39,101 bases of DNA from a virus. The notes under the pieces were generated by a model. It was given only the letters and a program-made list of their open reading frames with translations, did no database searches and was not told where the DNA came from. The stretch is from IMG/VR virus record IMGVR_UViG_3300035703_000197, positions 1 through 39,101 of that record; one strand, written 5' to 3'. Shown here in pieces: positions 2,691 to 39,101 of the stretch (positions are counted from its first letter, which is position 1; the number at the start of each line of letters is the position of its first letter). The position numbers and the translations under genes were made by a program.

Positions 2691-3005
2691 ATGGAACTGA
2701 CGTTCACCCGCCCTGCCGCCTCGCAAGTCAACCCATGGGACGCGCCGGGCACACCGACGACTTACACGCTGACAGCTATCGACCAAGGCATCCGGCAGGT
2801 CTATGTTGACGGCAATGCGACCGAAAGCACCGCCCGCACGTCTGCAACCCGCTTTGTCCGCACGCTGATGGTGGATGCGCTCGGCACAGCGCCGCAGATT
2901 GGCGACCGGGTGAGCATCGGCGGGCAGAGCCATGACGTGTTGCGCGTCCTGCCTCTGGCACCGGGCGGCGTGGCGATTTACTACAAGGTCGAGGTCAGCA
3001 CCTGA
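2691..3005 (+). CDS. Head-closure or head-tail joining protein candidate (104 aa)
   Basis: This small beta-rich protein starts MELTFTRPAASQVNPWD and ends in a strand-rich segment (GDRVSIGGQSHDVLRVLPL, then VAIYYKVEVST). Size, the terminal 'IGG...VLRV' beta-sandwich look, and position just before a Mu F-like and an HK97 gp10-like gene fit the head-closure family that joins the portal-adaptor ring to the tail. The ATG at 2691 is preferred over an in-frame TTG at 2685 that overlaps the previous stop. The assignment rests on gene order and shape rather than on a recognised signature. Confidence 0.6.
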   Translation: MELTFTRPAASQVNPWDAPGTPTTYTLTAIDQGIRQVYVDGNATESTARTSATRFVRTLMVDALGTAPQIGDRVSIGGQSHDVLRVLPLAPGGVAIYYKVEVST

Positions 3006-9397: not shown

Positions 9398-10287
9398 AGA
9401 TCATCCCGCCCATTGACGTGACGACGACCAACCTGACGGCAAGCAACGTCACCATCACCGAAACGCTGTGGACGGCAGGAACCTACACCACCGGCACCGA
9501 GCGGTATGTTGGCACCACGCTTTACCGCGTCATCGCCAGCCCCAGCACGGCAGACAATCCGACGGTCGGTGTAAACGCCACCCCGGCGACATGGGAAGTG
9601 GTCGGCAGCATTAACCGCTTCAAGATGTTCGACTTTAAGATCGGGCAGAAGACTTCGCGCGCCAGCCCCATATCAGTAACGGTCGATCCGGGCGGCGTTG
9701 TCAACTCGGTGGCGCTGCTTGAACTGGCCGGCGCAAACAGCGCGCGCGTGCGTGTGTCTGACCCGGTTGCCGGCACGGTTTACGACCAGACGCGCGACTT
9801 GACCGATTATACGGGCCTCACCAACTGGTATGCGTATTTCTTTACTCCTTACAGCCTAAAGTCTGATGTGTTTTTTAACGACCTACCTGCCTACGTCGAC
9901 GCCAATGTGCTGATCGACGTGTCCGGGCCGGCAACGGTGGAGATTGGCGAAACCGTGATTGGCCAAGGCCGGGTGATCGGCAGCACGGCAATCGATGTGC
10001 AGCTTGGCATTGAGGATTTCAGCCGCAAGGAACGCGACGAGGCGGGCAACATCACCATTGTCGAGCGGCGTTTCTCCAAGCTGGCAAGCTTCACTGTGCT
10101 GCTTGAGAACAACGCTGTGATGCCGATGTTCAACACGCTGGCCGCACGCCGGGCTGTGCCGACGCTCTATGTCGGCGGCGACGCCTTCGCCGAGACGTTC
10201 ATCTTCGGCTTCTACCGTGACTTCATGATTTTGCGCAGCGGGCCGGTCACGTCTGAACTGGCCATTGAGATCGAGGGACTTGTCTGA
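9394..10287 (+). CDS. Minor tail / tail-tip protein (297 aa)
   Basis: The start overlaps the tape-measure stop (ATGA). The N-terminus is a beta-rich module often seen in tail tip and fibre proteins: NLTASNVTITETLWTAGTY, then YVGTTLYRVIASPSTADNP and PATWEVVGSINRFKMFDFK. The remainder is also beta-rich, ending LRSGPVTSELAIEIEGLV. No enzyme motif is visible. Between the tape measure and the glycine-rich fibre it probably forms part of the tail tip. Unusually, no separate lambda L/K/I/J-like tip genes follow, so the tip is much reduced. Confidence 0.7.
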   Translation: MKIIPPIDVTTTNLTASNVTITETLWTAGTYTTGTERYVGTTLYRVIASPSTADNPTVGVNATPATWEVVGSINRFKMFDFKIGQKTSRASPISVTVDPGGVVNSVALLELAGANSARVRVSDPVAGTVYDQTRDLTDYTGLTNWYAYFFTPYSLKSDVFFNDLPAYVDANVLIDVSGPATVEIGETVIGQGRVIGSTAIDVQLGIEDFSRKERDEAGNITIVERRFSKLASFTVLLENNAVMPMFNTLAARRAVPTLYVGGDAFAETFIFGFYRDFMILRSGPVTSELAIEIEGLV

Positions 10288-11345
10288 TGCCGATTACGCC
10301 ACTTCCCACCCCGCCGAGCCGCAGCGACAGCGAGGCGACGTTTGTCAGCCGCGCAAACGCCTTCCTTGGCGCGCTGCCGACGTTTGTCACAGAGACCAAT
10401 GCCGAGGCGGCGGCGGTTGATGCTGACCGGGTGGCGGCGGCTGCCAGCGCGACAGCGGCGGCGGGCAGCGCCAGTGCAGCGGCGGGCAGTGCCAGTGCAG
10501 CGGCAGCAAGCGCGGTGACGGCTGATGCGGAGGCAGATCGGGCCGAAGCGGCGGCAACGGTTGCCTCTGCGGCATCCAACTATCGCGGCGAATATGCAGC
10601 CGGCACCACGTATCAGATCGGGCAGTCGGTTAGCCATCTGGGCAATTTCTTCTACGCCAAGACGGTCAACACGGGCGTTACCCCGGTGCAGGGGGCAAAC
10701 TGGGAACTGATCGGCAATTCGCCCACCTACACTGAGTTCCTTGCGGGCGGCACGTGGACGAAGCCGGCCAAGAGCAATTGGGTGTTTGTGGAAGCCATCG
10801 GCGGCGGTGGGTCTGGCGCTCTGAACAATACCTCTGGCGACGCAGGAGGCGGCGGCGGCGGTGCTTATACGTTTCGCCTGTTGCGGGCCAGCGATGTTGG
10901 CGCAACCGTCACAGTGACGATTGGCGCAGGCGGGGGCACGCGTGTCAACGTTGGCAATGGCTTTGACGGTGGCAACACAACGTTTGGATCACTGCTGACA
11001 GCGCCAGGCGGGCGCGGCGGCACAACGACCGGAGAGGGCGGCAGGTCAGGGAATGGTGCGATTGCTGCAAACGGCGGCTTTGGCAGCGGCGGCGGTGGCA
11101 CGGCAACCCTTGTTGGCGGCAGTTGCAGCAAAGGCGGCGCAGGCGGCGGTGGGGCAGATAACGCCGGGACTGCTACAAACGGTGGCACCTCGCAAGAAGG
11201 CGGCAACGGCGGCAACGGCGCGTTCAACGGCACTGCGACAAGCGGCGCTGTGCCCGGTGGTGGAGGCGGGGCATTTGTTGGCACTTCCGGCACAGTCCAG
11301 ACGGGCAGCGGTGGCGCGGGCCGCGTTCGCGTGTGGACTTGGTAA
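10287..11345 (+). CDS. Tail fibre with glycine-rich receptor-binding-like C-terminus (352 aa)
   Basis: The layout is modular. Residues about 1-35 are a proline-rich anchor, about 35-95 an Ala-rich coiled coil (repeats of ASATAAAGS), about 97-135 a small beta module (YRGEYAAGTTYQIGQSVSH), and the rest a glycine-rich domain starting TEFLAGGTWTKP. The last part contains long polyglycine loops (GGGGGGAYTF, GSGGGGTATL, GGAGGGGADN) between small variable segments, and ends GAGRVRVWTW. Phage adhesins with polyglycine II sandwich domains, including T-even gp38, have this look and bind cell-surface receptors through the loops between glycine runs. The start shares a base with the previous stop (TGATG). 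Confidence 0.8.
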   Translation: MPITPLPTPPSRSDSEATFVSRANAFLGALPTFVTETNAEAAAVDADRVAAAASATAAAGSASAAAGSASAAAASAVTADAEADRAEAAATVASAASNYRGEYAAGTTYQIGQSVSHLGNFFYAKTVNTGVTPVQGANWELIGNSPTYTEFLAGGTWTKPAKSNWVFVEAIGGGGSGALNNTSGDAGGGGGGAYTFRLLRASDVGATVTVTIGAGGGTRVNVGNGFDGGNTTFGSLLTAPGGRGGTTTGEGGRSGNGAIAANGGFGSGGGGTATLVGGSCSKGGAGGGGADNAGTATNGGTSQEGGNGGNGAFNGTATSGAVPGGGGGAFVGTSGTVQTGSGGAGRVRVWTW

Positions 11346-11356
11346 GGGGAACGCCA

Positions 11357-11755
11357 ATGCGCTTTGCAATCATCAGCGACGGCGTTGTCGTGAACGTGGT
11401 CGAGGCGTGGCCAGAACAGGCAGACGCCGCATGGGTGGCCAGCGACAAGGCCAACATCGGTTGGCTGTTCGACGGCGAAGAGTTCCGCGAACCGCCGCCA
11501 TTGCCCGCGCCCGTCCCCGCCAGCGTGACGCGCCGGCAAGCGCGCGAGGCGCTGCTTAATGTGGGCCTGCTTGATGACGTCGAGATGATTATCGGCAGCA
11601 TTGAGGACGCCACCGAACGCAAGCGGGCGGAAATCTACTGGCTGGACAGCGTTGCCTTTGAGCGCGCCAACCCCATGCTTGCACAGATCGCAAGCGCCGT
11701 GGGCCTGACCGAAGCCGAGATCGACGATCTCTTCCGGCAGGCTGCCGCGCTCTAA
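11357..11755 (+). CDS. Tail-fibre-accessory-like protein, copy B (132 aa)
   Basis: It starts MRFAIISDGVVVNVVEAW, an N-terminal module typical of small proteins encoded just after tail fibres. A proline linker (PPPLPAPVP) follows, then the helical module VTRRQAREALLNVGLLDD to LTEAEIDDLFRQAAAL. That module is shared with copy A at 456-953. The start at 11357 follows a GGGGAA ribosome-site-like stretch; upstream in-frame starts would overlap the fibre gene. Likely role: fibre folding, assembly or attachment. Confidence 0.75.
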   Translation: MRFAIISDGVVVNVVEAWPEQADAAWVASDKANIGWLFDGEEFREPPPLPAPVPASVTRRQAREALLNVGLLDDVEMIIGSIEDATERKRAEIYWLDSVAFERANPMLAQIASAVGLTEAEIDDLFRQAAAL

Positions 11756-12182: not shown

Positions 12183-13370
12183 GTGGCGGATCACACCATG
12201 AAGCTGCCCCGCAATTCCGCTGAAGTTGACCCGGCCCAAGATGCCCTGATTGCCGATCTGGCTGAACAGCTAGGCAGCATGAACAAGGCAGCGGCGCATC
12301 TGAGCGTGAGCCGGTCGGCGGTGCAGGCGGCTTGCAAGCGCCATCAGCGGCGCACTGGCGACTTCACAGGCGGCATTCCTGCATCGCCAGAGCGCGACGG
12401 CGGCGCGCCCTATATCGTCAAGGGGGTTTCGACCTACTTTGACGCACAGGGCAACCAGCGCGGCCAATGGGTCAAGACGCGGCTTGATGATGAGCAGCGG
12501 GCGGCCTTGCTGCGCGCCGCGGCTGAGGCGCTGGCCGAGCCGTTGCGTGGCATGGGCCCGGTGACTGTCGCGCCGGACGCCACGATCGAGGCGCTGATGA
12601 CGATCTACCCCATGGGCGACCCGCATTTCGGGCTGCACACATGGGCGCGCGAAACCGGCGAGGATTTCGACCTGGCTGAAGCCGAGCGCGTGACGTGCGC
12701 CGCGATTGATCGCCTTGTGATGCTGGCGCCCGCCTCTGCTGAGGCGACACTGCTGAACCTGGGCGATTTCTTCCACATGGACGATCAGCGCAACGTCACC
12801 CCGGGTAGCGGCCACCAGCTCGACGCTGACACGCGGTTTGTGAAGGTGGTGCAGGTCGGCATCAAGGCGATGCGGTGGGCGGTCATGCGGCTTCTACAGA
12901 AACACGCCCGGGTGAGGGTGCGCAACGTCCCGGGCAACCACGATCCGCACGCATCGCTGGCGCTTTCGGTGGCACTGGACGCCTATTTCGAGAGCGATCC
13001 CCGGGTGACCGTGGACATGTCGCCGGCCAAGTTCACCTTTCAGCGGTTCGGCAAGGTGCTGATCGGCGAGTGCCATGGCGACACGGCCAAGGCGGTTGAT
13101 CTGCCCGGCGTGATGATGGTTGACGCCCGGGAGCATATCAGTGCGACAGAATACTGGCATTGGCATTGCGGCCACGTCCACCACGACAGCCTGAAGGAAT
13201 ATCAGGGCGTCATTGTGGAAACGCACCGCACGCTGGCCGCAACCGACGCCTGGCACCGCAGCAAGGGCTATCGGTCTGGCCGGTCAATGAAGGCCGTCAC
13301 CTATCACCGCGACTTTGGCGAGGTCTCCCGGGTGACGTGCGACATCGCCATGCTGAGGGCCGCCGCATGA
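12183..13370 (+). CDS. HTH-containing metallophosphoesterase (395 aa)
   Basis: Residues about 20-55 look like a helix-turn-helix (MNKAAAHLSVSRSAVQAACK). The rest is a calcineurin-like phosphoesterase with the metal motifs in order: GDPHFG (145-150), LGDFFH (193-198), GNHD (251-254) and CGHVHH near residue 330. All metal ligands appear present. Family members are phosphodiesterases or nucleases such as SbcD/Mre11. The HTH suggests a nucleic-acid target. I chose GTG 12183, four bases after the previous stop; ATG 12198 is an alternative. Finding it between holin-like genes and the endolysin is odd for an enzyme of this type. Confidence 0.75.
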   Translation: MADHTMKLPRNSAEVDPAQDALIADLAEQLGSMNKAAAHLSVSRSAVQAACKRHQRRTGDFTGGIPASPERDGGAPYIVKGVSTYFDAQGNQRGQWVKTRLDDEQRAALLRAAAEALAEPLRGMGPVTVAPDATIEALMTIYPMGDPHFGLHTWARETGEDFDLAEAERVTCAAIDRLVMLAPASAEATLLNLGDFFHMDDQRNVTPGSGHQLDADTRFVKVVQVGIKAMRWAVMRLLQKHARVRVRNVPGNHDPHASLALSVALDAYFESDPRVTVDMSPAKFTFQRFGKVLIGECHGDTAKAVDLPGVMMVDAREHISATEYWHWHCGHVHHDSLKEYQGVIVETHRTLAATDAWHRSKGYRSGRSMKAVTYHRDFGEVSRVTCDIAMLRAAA

Positions 13371-13956: not shown

Positions 13957-14126
13957 AGATCGTTACCTACATCAAAGCCCGCTTGTCCGAGCGCAGCACG
14001 TTGCTGCTGATCGGCAGCGGCATTGGGACGGCGTCCATGCTGCCATGGCCGTGGAGCGTTGTCAGCGCGGTCGTGCATGTCGCCGCTGCGCTGGTGCCTG
14101 ATGGCACGCTGACGGGGCAGAAGTGA
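13953..14126 (+). CDS. Holin candidate (57 aa)
   Basis: The start overlaps the endolysin stop (ATGA) and the stop overlaps the Rz-like ATG. After a basic N-terminus (MKIVTYIKARLSERS) come two short hydrophobic segments (TLLLIGSGIGTASML and WSVVSAVVHVAAALVP) and a polar tail. Size, topology and position between endolysin and spanins fit a small holin. The 29- and 68-residue proteins upstream are alternative or partner holins. Confidence 0.65.
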   Translation: MKIVTYIKARLSERSTLLLIGSGIGTASMLPWPWSVVSAVVHVAAALVPDGTLTGQK

Positions 14127-14497
14127 TGCACGTGCCGATGTGGGCCTTGCGGGTGGCGCCGTATGTCGCTGGCCTATCGCTGGCCGTGGCAGCCTGTGCG
14201 TGGGCGTATGACAGCGGGCGCGATGCAGAGCGGGCAAAGTGGCAGGCGGCACAGCAACGCGCTGTAGAGGCCGCACAGGCCAAGAGCGCGGCCATGCAAG
14301 CCCAGGTTGATGCTGCCGGCGCGGCGCTGTCCGAAAAGCAGCAGCAGATTGCGGACATGATGCATGTGCAGAAACTGAACACAAGGACGTTCTATGTGCA
14401 GAACCCTGCTGCCAATGTTGCTTGCCTTAGCTCTGATCGGCTGCGGCACATCTCGGAAAGTGACGCCGCCGTTACGGCTGCCAGCACCGCCCGCTAA
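14126..14497 (+). CDS. Inner-membrane spanin subunit (Rz-like, 123 aa)
   Basis: It has an N-terminal membrane anchor (VAPYVAGLSLAVAACAWAY) followed by a long Ala/Gln-rich periplasmic coiled coil (AERAKWQAAQQRAVEAAQAK). This is the i-spanin topology. I use the ATG at 14126, which overlaps the holin stop; a GTG lies one codon upstream. Its 3' end contains the start of the o-spanin in another frame. Spanins join inner and outer membranes in the last step of lysis of a Gram-negative host. Confidence 0.8.
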   Translation: MHVPMWALRVAPYVAGLSLAVAACAWAYDSGRDAERAKWQAAQQRAVEAAQAKSAAMQAQVDAAGAALSEKQQQIADMMHVQKLNTRTFYVQNPAANVACLSSDRLRHISESDAAVTAASTAR

Positions 14498-24012: not shown

Positions 24013-24185
24013 TGCCCGGCCTCCCGTTCGGCCAACATCGCGTCGGCAATGTCGAACGCCATGATAGCGACAACCTCGGCATTGCCCGGTTGCAGATCGT
24101 CGGCAAACGCTGGCAGCAGGCCGGTCAGCGCGGCTGCGGCGTATAGGTCACGCAGCGGCACAGCGGGCGGGGTGGGCGCGGTCAC
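24009..24185 (-). CDS. Hypothetical protein (58 aa)
   Basis: The GTG at 24185 overlaps the preceding gene's stop (GTGA). The product is helical: PLRDLYAAAALTGLLPAFAD, then VVAIMAFDIADAMLAERE. Short proteins with an 'ALTGLLP...A..IADAML.ER' layout recur in phage early regions without known function. Confidence 0.65.
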   Translation of the reverse strand: MTAPTPPAVPLRDLYAAAALTGLLPAFADDLQPGNAEVVAIMAFDIADAMLAEREAGQ

Positions 24186-24946
24186 TTGGCGGCCTCCACA
24201 AACTTGCCGCCTTTGCAGCGATACGCCGCGCCGGGCTCGATGCCGTCCTCGCCAACGTAGGCAACGGCGATGCGGTAGCGGTTGCCGTCCCACCATTTCA
24301 GGGAAAGGCTTGCCCTGTTGCCGCCGGTCACGGTCGCCCAGTTGCCGCCGGTCACGGTCGCCCAGTTGCCGCCGGTCACGGTCGCATCGTCGCCGCCGGT
24401 CACGGTCGCATCGTAGCCGCCGGTCACGGTCGCCCTGTTGCCGCCGGTCACGGTCGCCCTGTAGCCGCCGGTCACGGTCGCATCGTCGCCGCCGGTCACG
24501 GTCGCCCTGTTGCCGCCGGTCACGGTCGCCCTGTCGCCGCCGGTCACGGTCGCCCTGTAACCGCCGGTCACGGTCGCCCTGTCGCCGCCGGTCTTGAAAC
24601 AGCCATGAACCGCAGCGCCGGGCTGCACAGCAAGCAGCGCATCGGTCGCCGTCTTGCGGTCGCCAAACGCCACCACGCGGCAGGATTGGAACTTATGCTT
24701 GCCGGTCAGATCAACACACGGCACGCCGTCTTCAACGGCAACGACCCACCACAGCGCGTCATCACTCCACGACAAATGGCTGCTATCGCCTTCGCCGTTA
24801 AGCAGGCCATGCAATCCGCCGCCGCAATTGGCATCGTCGCGCCAGTCAGGGGCAGTGACGACTGCGCCAACCTCAAGCGGCCATTGGAAGCCGCCATAAG
24901 CGCGGCCTTGTGCGTCGGTGGTGCGCAGGAAGTAGCGGGCGCTCAC
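24182..24946 (-). CDS. Octapeptide-repeat protein, ice-nucleation-like solenoid (254 aa)
   Basis: Residues 1-119 are a folded N-terminal part with several Trp and Cys (SARYFLRTTDAQGRAYGGF; WSDDALWWVVAVEDGVPC). Residues about 120-215 are twelve octapeptides G-G-x-x-A-T-V-T, eleven of them exact at ATVT, with x-x chosen from DR, YR, NR, DD, YD and NW. The C-terminal 39 residues close the fold (SLKWWDGNRYRIAVAYVG). Eight-residue periods of this kind (compare AGYGSTxT in ice-nucleation proteins) form narrow beta-solenoids. It is an early protein, so this is not a virion fibre by position. The GG-x-x-ATVT face may mimic or bind an extended polymer; function unknown. Confidence 0.7.
   Translation of the reverse strand: MSARYFLRTTDAQGRAYGGFQWPLEVGAVVTAPDWRDDANCGGGLHGLLNGEGDSSHLSWSDDALWWVVAVEDGVPCVDLTGKHKFQSCRVVAFGDRKTATDALLAVQPGAAVHGCFKTGGDRATVTGGYRATVTGGDRATVTGGNRATVTGGDDATVTGGYRATVTGGNRATVTGGYDATVTGGDDATVTGGNWATVTGGNWATVTGGNRASLSLKWWDGNRYRIAVAYVGEDGIEPGAAYRCKGGKFVEAAK
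24302..24589. repeat. 12 tandem 24-bp coding repeats
   Basis: On the + strand the unit reads GCCGCCGGTCACGGTCGC plus six variable bases. Eleven units are nearly identical and the twelfth (beginning of the array on this strand) is degraded. The 24-base period keeps the frame, so copy-number change by slippage would lengthen or shorten the solenoid without breaking the gene. Confidence 0.9.
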
Positions 24947-28603: not shown

Positions 28604-29151
28604 TTGCCGACGCCCTCAACCGGTTGGGCATTCGTCTGCCCAGCTATGGCCAGGGCGAACATCAGGCGACCTGCCCGCAATGCAGCCCCCACCGGAAAAA
28701 GAAAACGCTGCGCTGCCTGAGTGTGAAGATCGACGAACGCGGGGCGGCTTTCTGCTGCCATCACTGTGACTGGAAGGGCGCAACCCATGACAATTCATCC
28801 GAAGCACGTGGAATGGCTGATGGCGCGGGCAATCGACCCGGAAGTGGCCATTCGCGCTGGGGTCATCTCGAAGCACGACGCCGGGGCCAACTGGCTGGCG
28901 TTCCCCTACAGCGACCCGGAGACGGGGCAGATCGTCAACTGCAAGTATCGCCTTACCGGCCAGAAGCGGTTCCGCATGGACGAGGGCGGGCCGCTGCTGC
29001 TGTGGAACCTGCGCTGCTTGACGGACGCGGAACTGTTCAAGCCCTCCGAGCCGGTGATTATCACCGAGGGGGAAATGGACGCGCTGTCAGCCATGACGGC
29101 GGGGTGGAACCGCGTCCTTTCCGTCCCGAATGGCGCACCCGCCAAGGCTGA
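28600..29151 (+). CDS. Primase zinc-ribbon ORF (first ~65 residues credible)
   Basis: The start overlaps the O-like stop (GTATGA). Residues 1-64 form a primase-type zinc ribbon: RLPSYGQGEHQATCPQC, then LRCLSVKIDERGAAFCCHHC and DWKGATHD, with CxxC pairs at 25-28 and 53-56. Beyond about residue 65 the frame is an Arg/Gly-rich shadow of the helicase gene and is unlikely to fold. The TOPRIM-helicase starts in the +1 frame at 28787, opposite codon 63. It may be a separate zinc subunit, the N-terminus of a frameshifted long primase, or a sequencing error. Confidence 0.6.
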   Translation: MIADALNRLGIRLPSYGQGEHQATCPQCSPHRKKKTLRCLSVKIDERGAAFCCHHCDWKGATHDNSSEARGMADGAGNRPGSGHSRWGHLEARRRGQLAGVPLQRPGDGADRQLQVSPYRPEAVPHGRGRAAAAVEPALLDGRGTVQALRAGDYHRGGNGRAVSHDGGVEPRPFRPEWRTRQG

Positions 29152-30253
29152 TGACAGCGGGCCGATTGACCCGGATAACGACAAGGCACGCTATGCGCCG
29201 ATCTGGAACGCGCGCCGCCTGCTTGACCGGGTGCGGACGTTCATCATCGCTACCGATGCCGATGAGCCGGGGCGCATCCTTGCCGCCGAACTGGTGCGCC
29301 GGCTTGGCCCGGAGCGTTGCCGGTTCGTCGAATATCCCGCTGGCTGCAAAGACCTCAACGATGTGCTGGTGGCCTATGGCGAGGCAGGCGTTACGCGCGC
29401 TCTGCAAGCGGCCAAGCCTTACCCGGTGCAGGGCCTTTACCGGATGAGCGACTTTCCAGAGGAGACACAGCCGGAACCCATGCGCCTCCGTATCCCTGAC
29501 ATGTGGGATTGCTGGCCGGTGGTGCCGGGGCGCTTCACGGTCGTCACCGGCTATCCCGGCAAGGGCAAGACCACGTGGATGATGGCCTGCCTTGCTGATC
29601 TGATGCTGCAAGGGGTGAACATCTGCCTTGGCAGCTTTGAGACCACGGTAAACCCGATCATGCGGGACACGCTGCGCCAGCACCTGATGGGCTGCAATCT
29701 CAAGCGCATGACGCCGGAAAAGCAAGCCCAGGCGGATGCCATCATTGAGGAGCGCCTGACCATCATCGCGCAACAGTCGATCGATGATGACAGCGACCTT
29801 GACCTAGACGGGGTGCTGGAATTGGCAAAGATCGCCGTTTTGCGCGACAACGCTCGCGTGGTGGTTCTCGATCCGTGGAACCAGATCGAACACAAGCGCC
29901 ATTCCAACGAAACTGAAACCGAATACGTTGGCCGCGCCATCCGGCAGATGAAGCGGTTTGCCAAGAATTATCAGGTTGCGCTCGTCATCGTGGCGCACCC
30001 GGCCAAGCCCAGCTTTGAGGAGGCCAAGCACCCGCCGTCGCTCTACAGCATCGCCGGTTCTGCCCATTGGTATAACGCGGCTGATTACGGCATCGTTATT
30101 CACCGCAAGCGCGAGAGCAACATCACGCACATTGCCAACGTGAAGGTTCGGATGGGCAATCCGGGCAGCGAGGGCGTGCGTGATCTGGCGTGGGATTGGG
30201 AGCGCGCCCGCTTTGACCGCGCTGCCATGGTTGTTGCGGGAGAGGACGCATGA
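28787..30253 (+). CDS. T7 gp4-type TOPRIM primase-helicase (488 aa)
   Basis: The TOPRIM motifs are ITEGEMDAL (92-100) and ATDADEPG (155-162). The helicase has Walker A GYPGKGKTT (255-263), Walker B VVVLDPWNQ (358-366) and further RecA-like motifs (VALVIVAHPAKP, then SIAGSAHWYNAADYGIVIHR). It unwinds DNA at the fork and may make primers. The N-terminal zinc ribbon is absent from this frame but is encoded just upstream in another frame. ATG 28787 has GGAAGG about ten bases upstream; GTG 28766 is also in frame. The T7 short form 4B starts in the same relative place. Confidence 0.85.
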   Translation: MTIHPKHVEWLMARAIDPEVAIRAGVISKHDAGANWLAFPYSDPETGQIVNCKYRLTGQKRFRMDEGGPLLLWNLRCLTDAELFKPSEPVIITEGEMDALSAMTAGWNRVLSVPNGAPAKADDSGPIDPDNDKARYAPIWNARRLLDRVRTFIIATDADEPGRILAAELVRRLGPERCRFVEYPAGCKDLNDVLVAYGEAGVTRALQAAKPYPVQGLYRMSDFPEETQPEPMRLRIPDMWDCWPVVPGRFTVVTGYPGKGKTTWMMACLADLMLQGVNICLGSFETTVNPIMRDTLRQHLMGCNLKRMTPEKQAQADAIIEERLTIIAQQSIDDDSDLDLDGVLELAKIAVLRDNARVVVLDPWNQIEHKRHSNETETEYVGRAIRQMKRFAKNYQVALVIVAHPAKPSFEEAKHPPSLYSIAGSAHWYNAADYGIVIHRKRESNITHIANVKVRMGNPGSEGVRDLAWDWERARFDRAAMVVAGEDA

Positions 30254-36416: not shown

Positions 36417-36884
36417 ATGTCGCTGATCATCGAGGACGGCACCGGCGTTCCCGGCGCTGACAGCTTCAACACGGTGGCTGAGTGCAGCGGCCATGCTGTT
36501 GCGTATTTCGGGCAGTCGCTGGCCGGCAACAACACCGACAAGGAAGCGGCGTTGCGGCGGGCGTTTGTCTACATGAGCGCGCTGGAATGGCTGCCTGATC
36601 TGTGGCCCACGTTTGGCGGCACGATCCCGGAGGCGGTCAAGCTGGCGCAATCGGTGCTGGCGCGGGCAGAGTTTCAGCAGGTCAATGCGCTGTCGCCGTC
36701 GGTGACGCTGCAAGGCCGCAAGGTGCTCAACAAGGTGGGCGATCTGGGCTGGGATGTGACGCGCGGGCCGGAAACGGTGCAGGCGGCGCGGCCTGTCGTC
36801 ACCATGGCGATGGATTTCCTTGCTCCGTATCTGCGCACCAACCCCGCCAAGAACGGCGGCACGCGGTTTCTGGAGCGCGCATGA
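36417..36884 (+). CDS. Head-tail adaptor, DnaT-like family (155 aa)
   Basis: It starts MSLIIEDGTGVPGADSFNTV, with AVAYFGQSLAGNNTDKEAAL and RAFVYMSALEWLP, and ends FLAPYLRTN. This is the family annotated in databases as DnaT-like single-strand binding, which in phage structural operons acts as the adaptor ring below the portal. The name reflects distant similarity only. GGGAGG precedes the start. Confidence 0.8.
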   Translation: MSLIIEDGTGVPGADSFNTVAECSGHAVAYFGQSLAGNNTDKEAALRRAFVYMSALEWLPDLWPTFGGTIPEAVKLAQSVLARAEFQQVNALSPSVTLQGRKVLNKVGDLGWDVTRGPETVQAARPVVTMAMDFLAPYLRTNPAKNGGTRFLERA

Positions 36885-37135
36885 CGGACAACGTAGCGCC
36901 GCTGTTTGGCGGGCCGCGTCATGTCCGTGAAGTCAATGAGATTGCCGTCGCTGCGCTGGAAGAGGCGCTTGAGGCGGCGCGTTCCGGTGAAGTTGTCGGC
37001 GTGGTGATTGCGCGCCTGCACCACGACAATCTGAGCAGCTACCAGATTGCCGGCAAGATCGGCGGTTACGGCATCATCGGCGCGCTGGAAGTCGTCAAAG
37101 CGGAACTGACCCACCTCCATATCGAAGAGGATTGA
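36881..37135 (+). CDS. Hypothetical protein (84 aa) after the adaptor
   Basis: It is coupled to the adaptor (ATGA). The product is MTDNVAPLFGGPRHVREVNE, then a helix (AVAALEEALEAARSGEVVGV) and a beta segment (YQIAGKIGGYGIIGALEVVK). Soluble, with no known motif. It starts the set of genes that separates the adaptor from the head-closure gene. Confidence 0.7.
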   Translation: MTDNVAPLFGGPRHVREVNEIAVAALEEALEAARSGEVVGVVIARLHHDNLSSYQIAGKIGGYGIIGALEVVKAELTHLHIEED

Positions 37136-37137
37136 TC

Positions 37138-37500
37138 ATGGCCAAATTCGCCTCCCAGGCGGTGCAGGACGCGCCGCTTGATACCATCGCCACGGCGACC
37201 GAAATGTATATTTGCAACGGGCAGCCGACTGACCGTGCGGACGCCATCAGCAAGGCCCGTCACGCCAGCGCCATCACCATGGCCAGCGGCGACTTTGCCA
37301 AGACGACCAGCACCGGCAATCGCGTGCTGACCGTGACCGGCAAGAGCGCGACGGCCAATTCGACCGGCACCATTGATCACGTTGCGCTGTGCACCTCGAC
37401 CGGCCTGCTTTACGTGACGACCGGCACCGCACAGACGGCCAACAGCGGCAGCAGCATCAGCGTTGCCAACTTCACGGTCACGGCGACGGCGCTGGTCTAA
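37138..37500 (+). CDS. Putative virion decoration protein (120 aa)
   Basis: GAGG lies about six bases before ATG 37138. The product is Thr/Ser-rich and beta-rich: TIATATEMYICNGQPTDRAD, then TSTGNRVLTVTGKSATANST, and GLLYVTTGTAQTANSGSSIS. Such small beta proteins next to coat and fibre genes are often capsid decoration or fibre-base proteins; here that is inferred from position and composition. Confidence 0.65.
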   Translation: MAKFASQAVQDAPLDTIATATEMYICNGQPTDRADAISKARHASAITMASGDFAKTTSTGNRVLTVTGKSATANSTGTIDHVALCTSTGLLYVTTGTAQTANSGSSISVANFTVTATALV

Positions 37501-37503
37501 GCC

Positions 37504-38235
37504 ATGCCGTATCTGCGCCCGTATCGCGTCGCTGAGACGACGACCAGCACTGGCACCGGCAGCATCACGCTTGCCGGTGCCGTGACGGGCTTTGCCACGT
37601 TTGCGGCCGAACTGGCCAACGCGGACACGGCCACCATCGTCATCGAGGCGGTGGACGGCAACGGCGCACCCACCGGCGATTGGGAGGTGTGCGATACCAC
37701 CTTCACCAGCCCGTCCACACTGTCACGCGGCACGCTGCGCGATAGCTCGACCGGCAGCCGCATCAGCTTTGCGGCCGGCACGAAGCGGGTGTTTGCGATC
37801 AGTCCGCGCGATGCGGTTGATCTGGCCAGCGCCGATGTGGTGGGCAAGCCCGCGGGCGACTTGGTGGGCACGACCGCCACGCAGACGCTGACCAACAAAA
37901 CGCTGGGCGGCGCGGTGCTGAACGATGGCTACACGGAAGAAGTGTTTGCCATCACCGACGGCGCGACGGTCAACCTGGACCCGAACAACGGCAGCATTCA
38001 GACATGGACGCTGGGCGCCAACCGCACGCCGGGGCAGGCGAACTGGGCAGCGGGGCAGTCGATCACGCTGATGGTGGATGACGGCAGCGCGTTCAGCATC
38101 ACGTGGACGACGCTGGCGGTGGTGTGGAAATCGGACGGCGGCAGCGCACCGACGCTCAACACCAGCGGTTTCACGGTGATTGTGCTGTGGAAGGTGGGCA
38201 CGACGATTTACGGCGCGCGGGTGGGTGACGCCTGA
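37504..38235 (+). CDS. Fibre-like protein (243 aa) in the head region
   Basis: The N-terminal module reads SITLAGAVTGFATFAAELAN, VDGNGAPTGDWEVCDTTFTS and SRISFAAGTKRVFAI, a common N-terminal domain of phage fibres. TQTLTNKTLGGAVLN is the linker found in many fibre proteins. A C-terminal beta module follows (EVFAITDGATVNLDPNNGSI, QTWTLGANRTPG, VDDGSAFSITWTTLAVVW). The propeller gene follows immediately (TGATG). It may anchor the propeller to the capsid or another virion part. Confidence 0.75.
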   Translation: MPYLRPYRVAETTTSTGTGSITLAGAVTGFATFAAELANADTATIVIEAVDGNGAPTGDWEVCDTTFTSPSTLSRGTLRDSSTGSRISFAAGTKRVFAISPRDAVDLASADVVGKPAGDLVGTTATQTLTNKTLGGAVLNDGYTEEVFAITDGATVNLDPNNGSIQTWTLGANRTPGQANWAAGQSITLMVDDGSAFSITWTTLAVVWKSDGGSAPTLNTSGFTVIVLWKVGTTIYGARVGDA

Positions 38236-39101
38236 TGTTGTCGAACATGCTGAAAGCGGCCAAGGTGCCGGCGGGCGGCGGCGGTCAGCAGTTTCTGGCA
38301 GTGGCGCACAACAGCACGCCATTCATCACCGCCTACCCTTGGAGCAGCAGCGGCTTCGGCACGAAATACGCCAATCCGGCGACGTTGCCGACTAGCAACG
38401 GCAACGACGTTGCCTTCACCCCCGCAGGCGATGCCATCGCTGTGGCGCACTCGAGTTCGCCATTCATCACCGCCTACCCTTGGAGCGGCTCCGGCTTTGG
38501 CACTAAATACGCCGATCCTTCAACCCTGCCGACTGGCACCGGCTTGGGCGTCGCATTCTCGCCCTCTAGCGATGCAATTGCCGTGGCGCACAACAGCACG
38601 CCATTCATCACCGCCTACCCTTGGAGCAGCTCCGGCTTTGGCACTAAATACGCCAATCCTTCAACCCTGCCGACTGGCACCGGCTTGGGCGTCGCATTCT
38701 CGCCCTCTAGCGATGCAATTGCCGTGGCGCACAACAGCACGCCATTCATCACCGCCTACCCTTGGAGCAGTTCCGGCTTCGGTACTAAGTTCACCAATCC
38801 TTCAACCCTGCCGACTGGGCAAGGCAGAAGGATATCCTTCTCTCCAGCAGGCGACGCCCTTGCTGTGGCGCACCCCACGTCGCCATTCATCACCGCCTAT
38901 CCGTGGTCAAGTAGCGGCTTTGGAACGAAGTTTGCCAATCCGGGAACGCTGCCGCCTAACACTTGCAACGGCGTTGCCTTTTCCCCCGCAAGTGACGCCA
39001 TCGCTGTGGCGCACCCCACGTCGCCATTCATCACCGCCTATCCGTGGTCAAGTAGCGGCTTTGGAACGAAGTTTGCCAATCCGGGAACGCTGCCGCCTAA
39101 C
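38235..39101 (+). CDS. Beta-propeller (WD40-like repeat) virion protein, N-terminal part (continues at base 1)
   Basis: The start is MLSNMLKAAKVPAGGGGQQF, then 47-residue units AVAHNSTPFITAYPWSSSGF, GTKYANPATLP, a variable turn, and VAFSPxxDAI. Five full units and most of a sixth lie before the window end. Joining base 39061 to base 1 adds the rest of unit six and unit seven, giving exactly seven units in about 346 residues with an unbroken frame. Seven WD40-like units is the usual number for a closed propeller. Repeats 2 and 3 are nearly identical in DNA, so recent conversion or assembly collapse is possible. It may bind host surface or stabilise the virion. Confidence 0.85.
   Translation, partial: MLSNMLKAAKVPAGGGGQQFLAVAHNSTPFITAYPWSSSGFGTKYANPATLPTSNGNDVAFTPAGDAIAVAHSSSPFITAYPWSGSGFGTKYADPSTLPTGTGLGVAFSPSSDAIAVAHNSTPFITAYPWSSSGFGTKYANPSTLPTGTGLGVAFSPSSDAIAVAHNSTPFITAYPWSSSGFGTKFTNPSTLPTGQGRRISFSPAGDALAVAHPTSPFITAYPWSSSGFGTKFANPGTLPPNTCNGVAFSPASDAIAVAHPTSPFITAYPWSSSGFGTKFANPGTLPPN
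38310..39101 (+). repeat. 141-bp tandem repeats encoding propeller blades
   Basis: Direct repeats of 141 bp run to the window end and continue at 1-200. Neighbouring units are highly similar. The longest shared blocks include CTTCAACCCTGCCGACTGGC and the surrounding bases (copies near 38519 and 38660), and the unit that also starts the window. Short-read assembly could have lost or added a unit here. Confidence 0.9.
39062..39101. repeat. 40-bp terminal overlap with bases 1-40
   Basis: The last 40 bases equal the first 40. They lie within the tandem repeats, so the overlap shows circularity or permutation of the assembly rather than a packaged terminal repeat. Removing it leaves 39061 bp and keeps the propeller gene in frame. 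Confidence 0.9.

Follow-up and report, generated by a model that had tools for sequence, protein, structure and literature searches.

A transferable adhesion cassette between the neck genes of an uncultured phage, and the possibility that it encodes a second fibre

The window analysed here is the whole of a 39,101-base IMG/VR virus record (IMGVR_UViG_3300035703_000197), which comes from an uncultured phage. A block of ~4.6 kb with adhesin-type genes occupies positions 37138-39061 and, read across the contig junction, 1-2688. To its left are the genes for terminase, portal, scaffold and a P22-type major capsid protein (MCP; phrog_283), the head-tail adaptor Ad1 (36417-36884; phrog_477, E 1.2e-16; PF20557, E 1e-16) and p84, a small backbone protein (36881-37135; phrog_796, E 5e-7). 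To its right follow the backbone head-closure protein Hc1 (2691-3005; phrog_161, E 3.9e-8), a head-morphogenesis protein, Ne1, the terminator, the major tail protein, the tape measure, a distal tail gene, and a separate tail-tip fibre (10287-11345) with its accessory protein (11333-11755; phrog_863, E 2.4e-29, and Gly_rich_2, E 6e-9, for the pair). Ad1, p84, all block genes, Hc1 and the tail-tip pair lie on the plus strand. A preliminary description of this DNA had proposed an adhesin-type block between adaptor and head-closure genes, with head-tail joining genes on both sides and a tail fibre elsewhere; the arrangement of Ad1, p84 and Hc1, the fibre, propeller and chaperone between them, and the fibre at 10287-11345 bear this out.

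Within the block, the first gene is Dec (37138-37500), a 120-residue beta protein that resembles fibre and whisker adaptors, as judged by its predicted fold. The fibre gene (37504-38235) encodes an N-terminal domain (residues ~1-115) and a swappable C-terminal domain, FibC (~115-243). A WD40-like propeller begins at 38235 and reaches the contig end at 39101, or 39061 without the last 40 nucleotides, which repeat positions 1-40; its 3' part, joined in a merged ORF, occupies 1-214. It is followed by p80 (214-456), a small protein that appears helical from its sequence pattern, a chaperone-like protein (456-953; phrog_6034), a small permuted papain-like protein (953-1354; phrog_1128, E 4.7e-44; H, then an FCSE motif), and a protein of ~17 repeats of 22 residues that closes the block (22-repeat protein, 1354-2688). 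The exact 40-nucleotide overlap between the contig ends falls inside a 141-nucleotide propeller repeat, and the same 40-mer also occurs at 38921. Merged across the junction, the propeller gene is in frame and encodes 346 residues in seven 47-residue repeats. Closure of the contig is plausible because this length is near that of stand-alone relatives (mostly ~340-353 residues), and an artefact of closure was ruled out on the same frame and size. The number of propeller blades hinges on the assembly, as the end overlap could be a repeat effect.

Known RNA families were searched for in the window and none was found. ARAGORN calls a tRNA-Phe at 24671-24762, probably spuriously, within a minus-strand frame (24182-24946; phrog_18079) for a 254-residue protein whose 8-residue unit (GGxxATVT), specified by 24-nucleotide tandem repeats, recurs about eleven times.

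Homologues of Dec that are 56-89% identical occur in 13 other contigs (L008-L015, L053-L055, L074/L098 and L099), and no relative was found in bacterial genomes or in named phages. The heads of these contigs are HK97-type (terminase phrog_9, portal phrog_12, protease phrog_94, capsid phrog_10), with capsids of several lineages that are 25-42% alike. Wherever a Dec contig includes the MCP gene, Dec is found just behind it, and the 22-repeat protein immediately precedes Ad1 in five contigs (L009, L010, L011, L013 and L015). L015 carries Dec, fibre, propeller, p80, chaperone and 22-repeat protein, and Dec with the N-terminal part of the fibre is 81% identical to the window at the nucleotide level. 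Nine proteins compared between the window and L015/L009 (terminase, portal, capsid, Ad1, Hc1, Ne1, terminator, major tail protein and tape measure) have no significant similarity. The middle of the block varies: in L008-L010 a DUF7483 protein that we read as lectin-like comes after the fibre, in L011-L014 a 775-residue protein with the look of a beta-helix follows Dec, and in L099 a 907-residue protein does so. The first and last genes are constant and the host-binding middle is exchanged, as fibre and propeller, fibre and lectin-like protein, or a beta-helix type. The block is a transferable adhesion cassette, co-transferred and tip-swapping, in a head-neck gene slot.

Other parts of the genome are also shared. 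The primase-helicase (28766-30253) is 72% identical to that of L015, and lysis-region genes are common to the window and L238/L239. The phage is a mosaic, and all of these phages belong to a single recombining pool in which the structural modules flanking the cassette differ. Besides the primase-helicase, an exonuclease (12183-13370) and a lysis-region gene (14123-14497) are related to those of HK97-headed Dec phages.

Gene order was surveyed in 138 loci with P22-type capsids, from bacterial genomes and IMG/VR, and in three named phages, with neck genes placed by iterated profiles; the head-morphogenesis protein, used as a probe for relatives, gave no confirmed match. In this non-random sample, the best-scoring part of the collections, the spacing from Ad1 to Hc1 has a median of -1 nucleotide and a maximum of 1088 in 65 relatives, against 4867 in the window, and exceeds 500 nucleotides in two of the 65: L213 and L211 (a 302-residue fibre-like gene). 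In 25 of 83 relatives, additional genes, many fibre-like, take up 1 to 5 kb between the capsid gene and Ad1. Adhesin-like insertions near the capsid gene therefore recur, and the rare feature is the Ad1-Hc1 slot. In four relatives (L104, L113, L114 and L187) the site is empty, with Ad1, p84 and Hc1 contiguous, which sets the limits of the cassette at Dec and the 22-repeat protein. The position of the block is more than chance: the spacing is an outlier, and phages of unrelated backbone carry the block as well.

The preliminary description had called for such a survey of related phages and had remarked that the usual place of host-binding genes is behind the tape measure. The rule is too simple in view of the 25 relatives with extra genes before Ad1, although the Ad1-Hc1 slot is indeed rare. 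The survey upheld the recurrence of the cassette but not the whole block as one system: the papain-like gene is unconserved in the cassette, and p84, which adjoins Hc1 at the empty sites, belongs to the backbone.

The N-terminal domain of the fibre is 66-85% identical among Dec contigs and also occurs in podophages. FibC is found in 130 viral contigs, which include podophages, the tail-tip fibres of L044 and L064, and the window; comparison of the fibre sequence with the PDB gave chance matches only. In the podophages L039-L041, a portal gene (phrog_156) and a small beta protein (phrog_644) precede a homologous fibre and propeller, which we read as probable portal-vertex fibres. The propeller matches 513 places in IMG/VR and stands directly after FibC in 28 of the 71 with enough upstream sequence. 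Its homologue in L015 (66%) matches the WD-40 repeat protein 2ymu (E 2.7e-23), through which the window's propeller is classed as WD40-like; the Pfam WD40 family has no match in the window's propeller fragment. Among 80 independently collected propellers, p80-like genes follow 54 and chaperone-like genes 46. Unclassified p80 is 72% identical in L015, occurs also in L017, L029, L053 and others, and may be a dedicated propeller chaperone. The chaperone-like protein has the N-terminal domain of cassette chaperones and shares its C-terminal domain with the tail-fibre accessory protein at 11333-11755 (E 3.7e-22), and phrog_6034 matches both. PF16778 (Phage_tail_APC) matches the L015 homologue (E 7e-25) and has no match in the window chaperone; the C-terminal domain is exchanged between these two versions.

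The 22-repeat protein is predicted to be a right-handed beta-helix with three strands per coil and a C-terminal helix (AlphaFold2 model, pLDDT 70.5). Its model matches Vag8 (Z 29), pertactin (Z 21) and tailspikes (Z 17-19), within a range of many beta-helices from Z 29 to 15. Looser relatives with a 22-residue period and a similar N-terminal motif lie beside several podophage fibre clusters, and one directly precedes Ad1 in L198, which has the same capsid type as the window. A tblastn search of named phages gave no match to the 22-repeat protein, probably owing to the low-complexity filter. The papain-like protein has one distant relative (L065) among all collected loci, none in other cassette copies, and no match in the PDB. 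The label "enoyl-CoA hydratase-like" of phrog_1128 looks wrong for 953-1354, which has the permuted papain-like motifs SHVE and FCSE.

The AlphaFold2 model of Dec (pLDDT 91, pTM 0.82) has, as a predicted structure, the fold of a whisker protein. Its best solved match is chain K of the Sf14 neck (Z 9.6, 105 of 108 residues, 3.0 A), with the Bas63 connector close behind (Z 9.5), followed at lower values by the GP4 fibre I/fibre-tail adaptor (6.5), the 7-7-1 tail fibre (6.3) and unrelated enzymes (5.8). Foldseek pairs Dec with the whisker chains at probability 1.00 (E ~5e-3, TM 0.57/0.62). The matched Sf14 and Bas63 chains are homologues of FelixO1 ORF55/Sf14 gp31, the partner of the 166-residue gp30/collar protein; in Sf14, gp30 and gp31 form whiskers attached to the neck via gp37 (PMC11821841). 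Profile comparison of Dec with the whisker protein gave an hhalign probability of 0.2, from a shallow profile (Neff 1.5), and Dec has no sequence-level similarity to phrog_644, which itself weakly matches a "tail wing arm" protein. No sequence-level link of either to whisker or other small adaptors was detected. The likeness of Dec to whisker and fibre adaptors is one of predicted fold, and in the models it is stronger than that to any capsid lattice protein. Dec had been described beforehand as decoration-like, within a head-fibre or capsid-borne system for adhesion and peptidoglycan attack. The adhesin block stands, yet Dec is nearest in fold to the Sf14/Bas63 neck-whisker protein and to fibre adaptors, which makes capsid-lattice fibres less likely than neck fibres, and peptidoglycan attack is unsupported, the papain-like gene being absent from other cassette copies.

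We favour, with a probability of roughly 45%, the reading that the cassette encodes an adhesive fibre for the head-neck vertex, additional to and distinct from the tail-tip fibre. The nucleotide identity shared with L015 despite nine dissimilar structural genes points to this reading, as do the constant siting of the cassette after the MCP gene and before that for head closure (p84 and Hc1 bound it here, the MCP and Ad1 do so in relatives), the best fold matches of Dec to whisker chains, the fibre and propeller behind the portal gene in L039-L041, the swapping of tips between backbones, and the phage's own separate tail fibre. Genes for a tail-tip fibre are expected behind the tape measure or distal tail genes; here the tape measure gene is 3.7 kb downstream of the block, which precedes every tail gene. 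Dec would sit on the neck, at the portal vertex and the level of adaptor and head closure, and take the N-terminal domain of a trimeric fibre, whose C-terminal domain would present the propeller as receptor-binding tip. Folding of fibre and tip may be aided by the chaperone-like protein and perhaps by p80, and the 22-repeat beta-solenoid could add a further stiff rod or adhesin to this structure. Such a fibre might bind the cell surface reversibly before the tail-tip fibre engages. That the products are in virions, sit at the neck, bind a receptor and assemble in this order is what we infer here. Several observations count against the neck: Dec-like folds also occur in tail-fibre and baseplate adaptors, between the two host backbones the neck proteins are no more alike than the capsids, and a "tail assembly chaperone" domain is present in the cassette chaperones.

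In a rival reading, which we consider somewhat unlikely, genes located among those for the neck make products that attach to the shaft or tip of the tail, where Dec would serve as adaptor for a tail fibre. The Dec fold is shared with the GP4 fibre-tail adaptor and the 7-7-1 tail fibre; in L044 and L064 FibC ends a fibre homologous to the tail-tip fibre at 10287, beside a distal-tail gene of the 9394 type; the L015 chaperone is a Phage_tail_APC protein; and CGphi29 has a propeller relative behind the tape measure. However, in at least four head lineages the cassette is sited after the capsid gene and before head closure, a tail fibre and a dedicated accessory protein are already encoded elsewhere in the window, and the tail modules of the Dec phages examined appear to end in a GTA-type tail-tip protein of 738-1119 residues.

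Attachment of Dec to the capsid itself, with fibres carried on faces or vertices, seems improbable. Dec does lie directly downstream of the MCP in HK97-type relatives, and Agrobacterium phage 7-7-1 is known to catch its host with capsid fibres (PMC12796354). However, Dec is 86-89% identical on P22-type and HK97-type capsids without detectable MCP similarity, and such near constancy across capsid types makes this placement less likely; its best fold matches are a neck whisker and fibre adaptors, with no capsid lattice protein among them. That the cassette is no part of the particle, or was merely delivered to its site by recombination within one host pool, is very improbable: the phage is a mosaic whose replication and lysis-region genes are common to HK97-type phages, but the frames are intact, gene order is constant over several lineages, the chaperone is co-transferred, and tip exchange is typical of receptor-binding genes.

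Accessory neck or head fibres, which T4 also has, are already known; the gene set, the propeller tip and the exchange between unrelated head types are new. Like Dec, the FelixO1-like whiskers (Sf14 gp30/gp31; Bas63) include a small beta protein of this fold, and in FelixO1 the whisker genes lie in the head region, between those for portal and capsid. Unlike the window phage, these are myophages; Dec has no detected sequence similarity to their protein, and no partner like the 166-residue gp30 was identified in the window. No long fibre, propeller or swappable tip is reported for Sf14 (PMC11821841). The neck passage structure (NPS, collar fibres) of lactococcal 936 phages combines a constant base with swappable carbohydrate-binding or polysaccharide-lyase-like tips, in addition to the tail receptor-binding protein (PMC6669499). 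The cassette, whose placement at the neck is proposed, likewise has a constant base and swappable tips, whereas the NPS is a single protein, modelled as an 18-mer ring, without Dec, propeller or 22-repeat protein. Agrobacterium phage 7-7-1 and Caulobacter phiCbK, both phages of alphaproteobacteria, have adhesive fibres beyond the tail on their capsids; the 7-7-1 capsid-fibre genes are not identified in PMC12796354, and Dec resembles part of the tail fibre of 7-7-1 rather than its capsid proteins. Ralstonia phage GP4 holds its fibre I by a small adaptor of similar fold, but it is a podophage, and the match to Dec is weaker than that of the whisker proteins. The marine/freshwater podophage ctYwJ313 (MW202701) has FibC, propeller (60-67% identity) and a chaperone annotation in the same order, but in a tail-fibre region, with two fused propellers, no Dec and no neck-gene slot.

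A more specific proposal, which we advance only tentatively, is that a self-contained, propeller-tipped cassette is re-inserted each time in the head-neck slot of unrelated phages, docks on a feature of the portal vertex conserved in shape and not in sequence, and by tip exchange alters host binding while leaving the tail untouched. If the favoured reading is right, host range in these siphophages would rest on a pair of exchangeable fibre systems, of which one is concealed in the head region, a place that annotation pipelines do not search for receptor-binding proteins. With Dec as a common base, the docking site can be put to the test, and further cases can be sought by checking the MCP-Ad1 or Ad1-Hc1 slot.

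Other genes lie in these slots. In L136, L138, L140 and L147 (Janthinobacterium and Duganella prophages), L211 and L219, proteins of 302-803 residues in the capsid-Ad1 or Ad1-Hc1 slot have a common N-terminal domain (TITLPAGxxLxV...GPYA...RFxIxCxAGSI) and variable ends, and are another candidate family of head or neck fibres. Methyltransferase-like and glycosyltransferase-like genes are inserted in the capsid-Ad1 or fibre region of L101 (11559-12928), L172 (11383-12752), L009 (9229-10008) and L017 (3935-4600).
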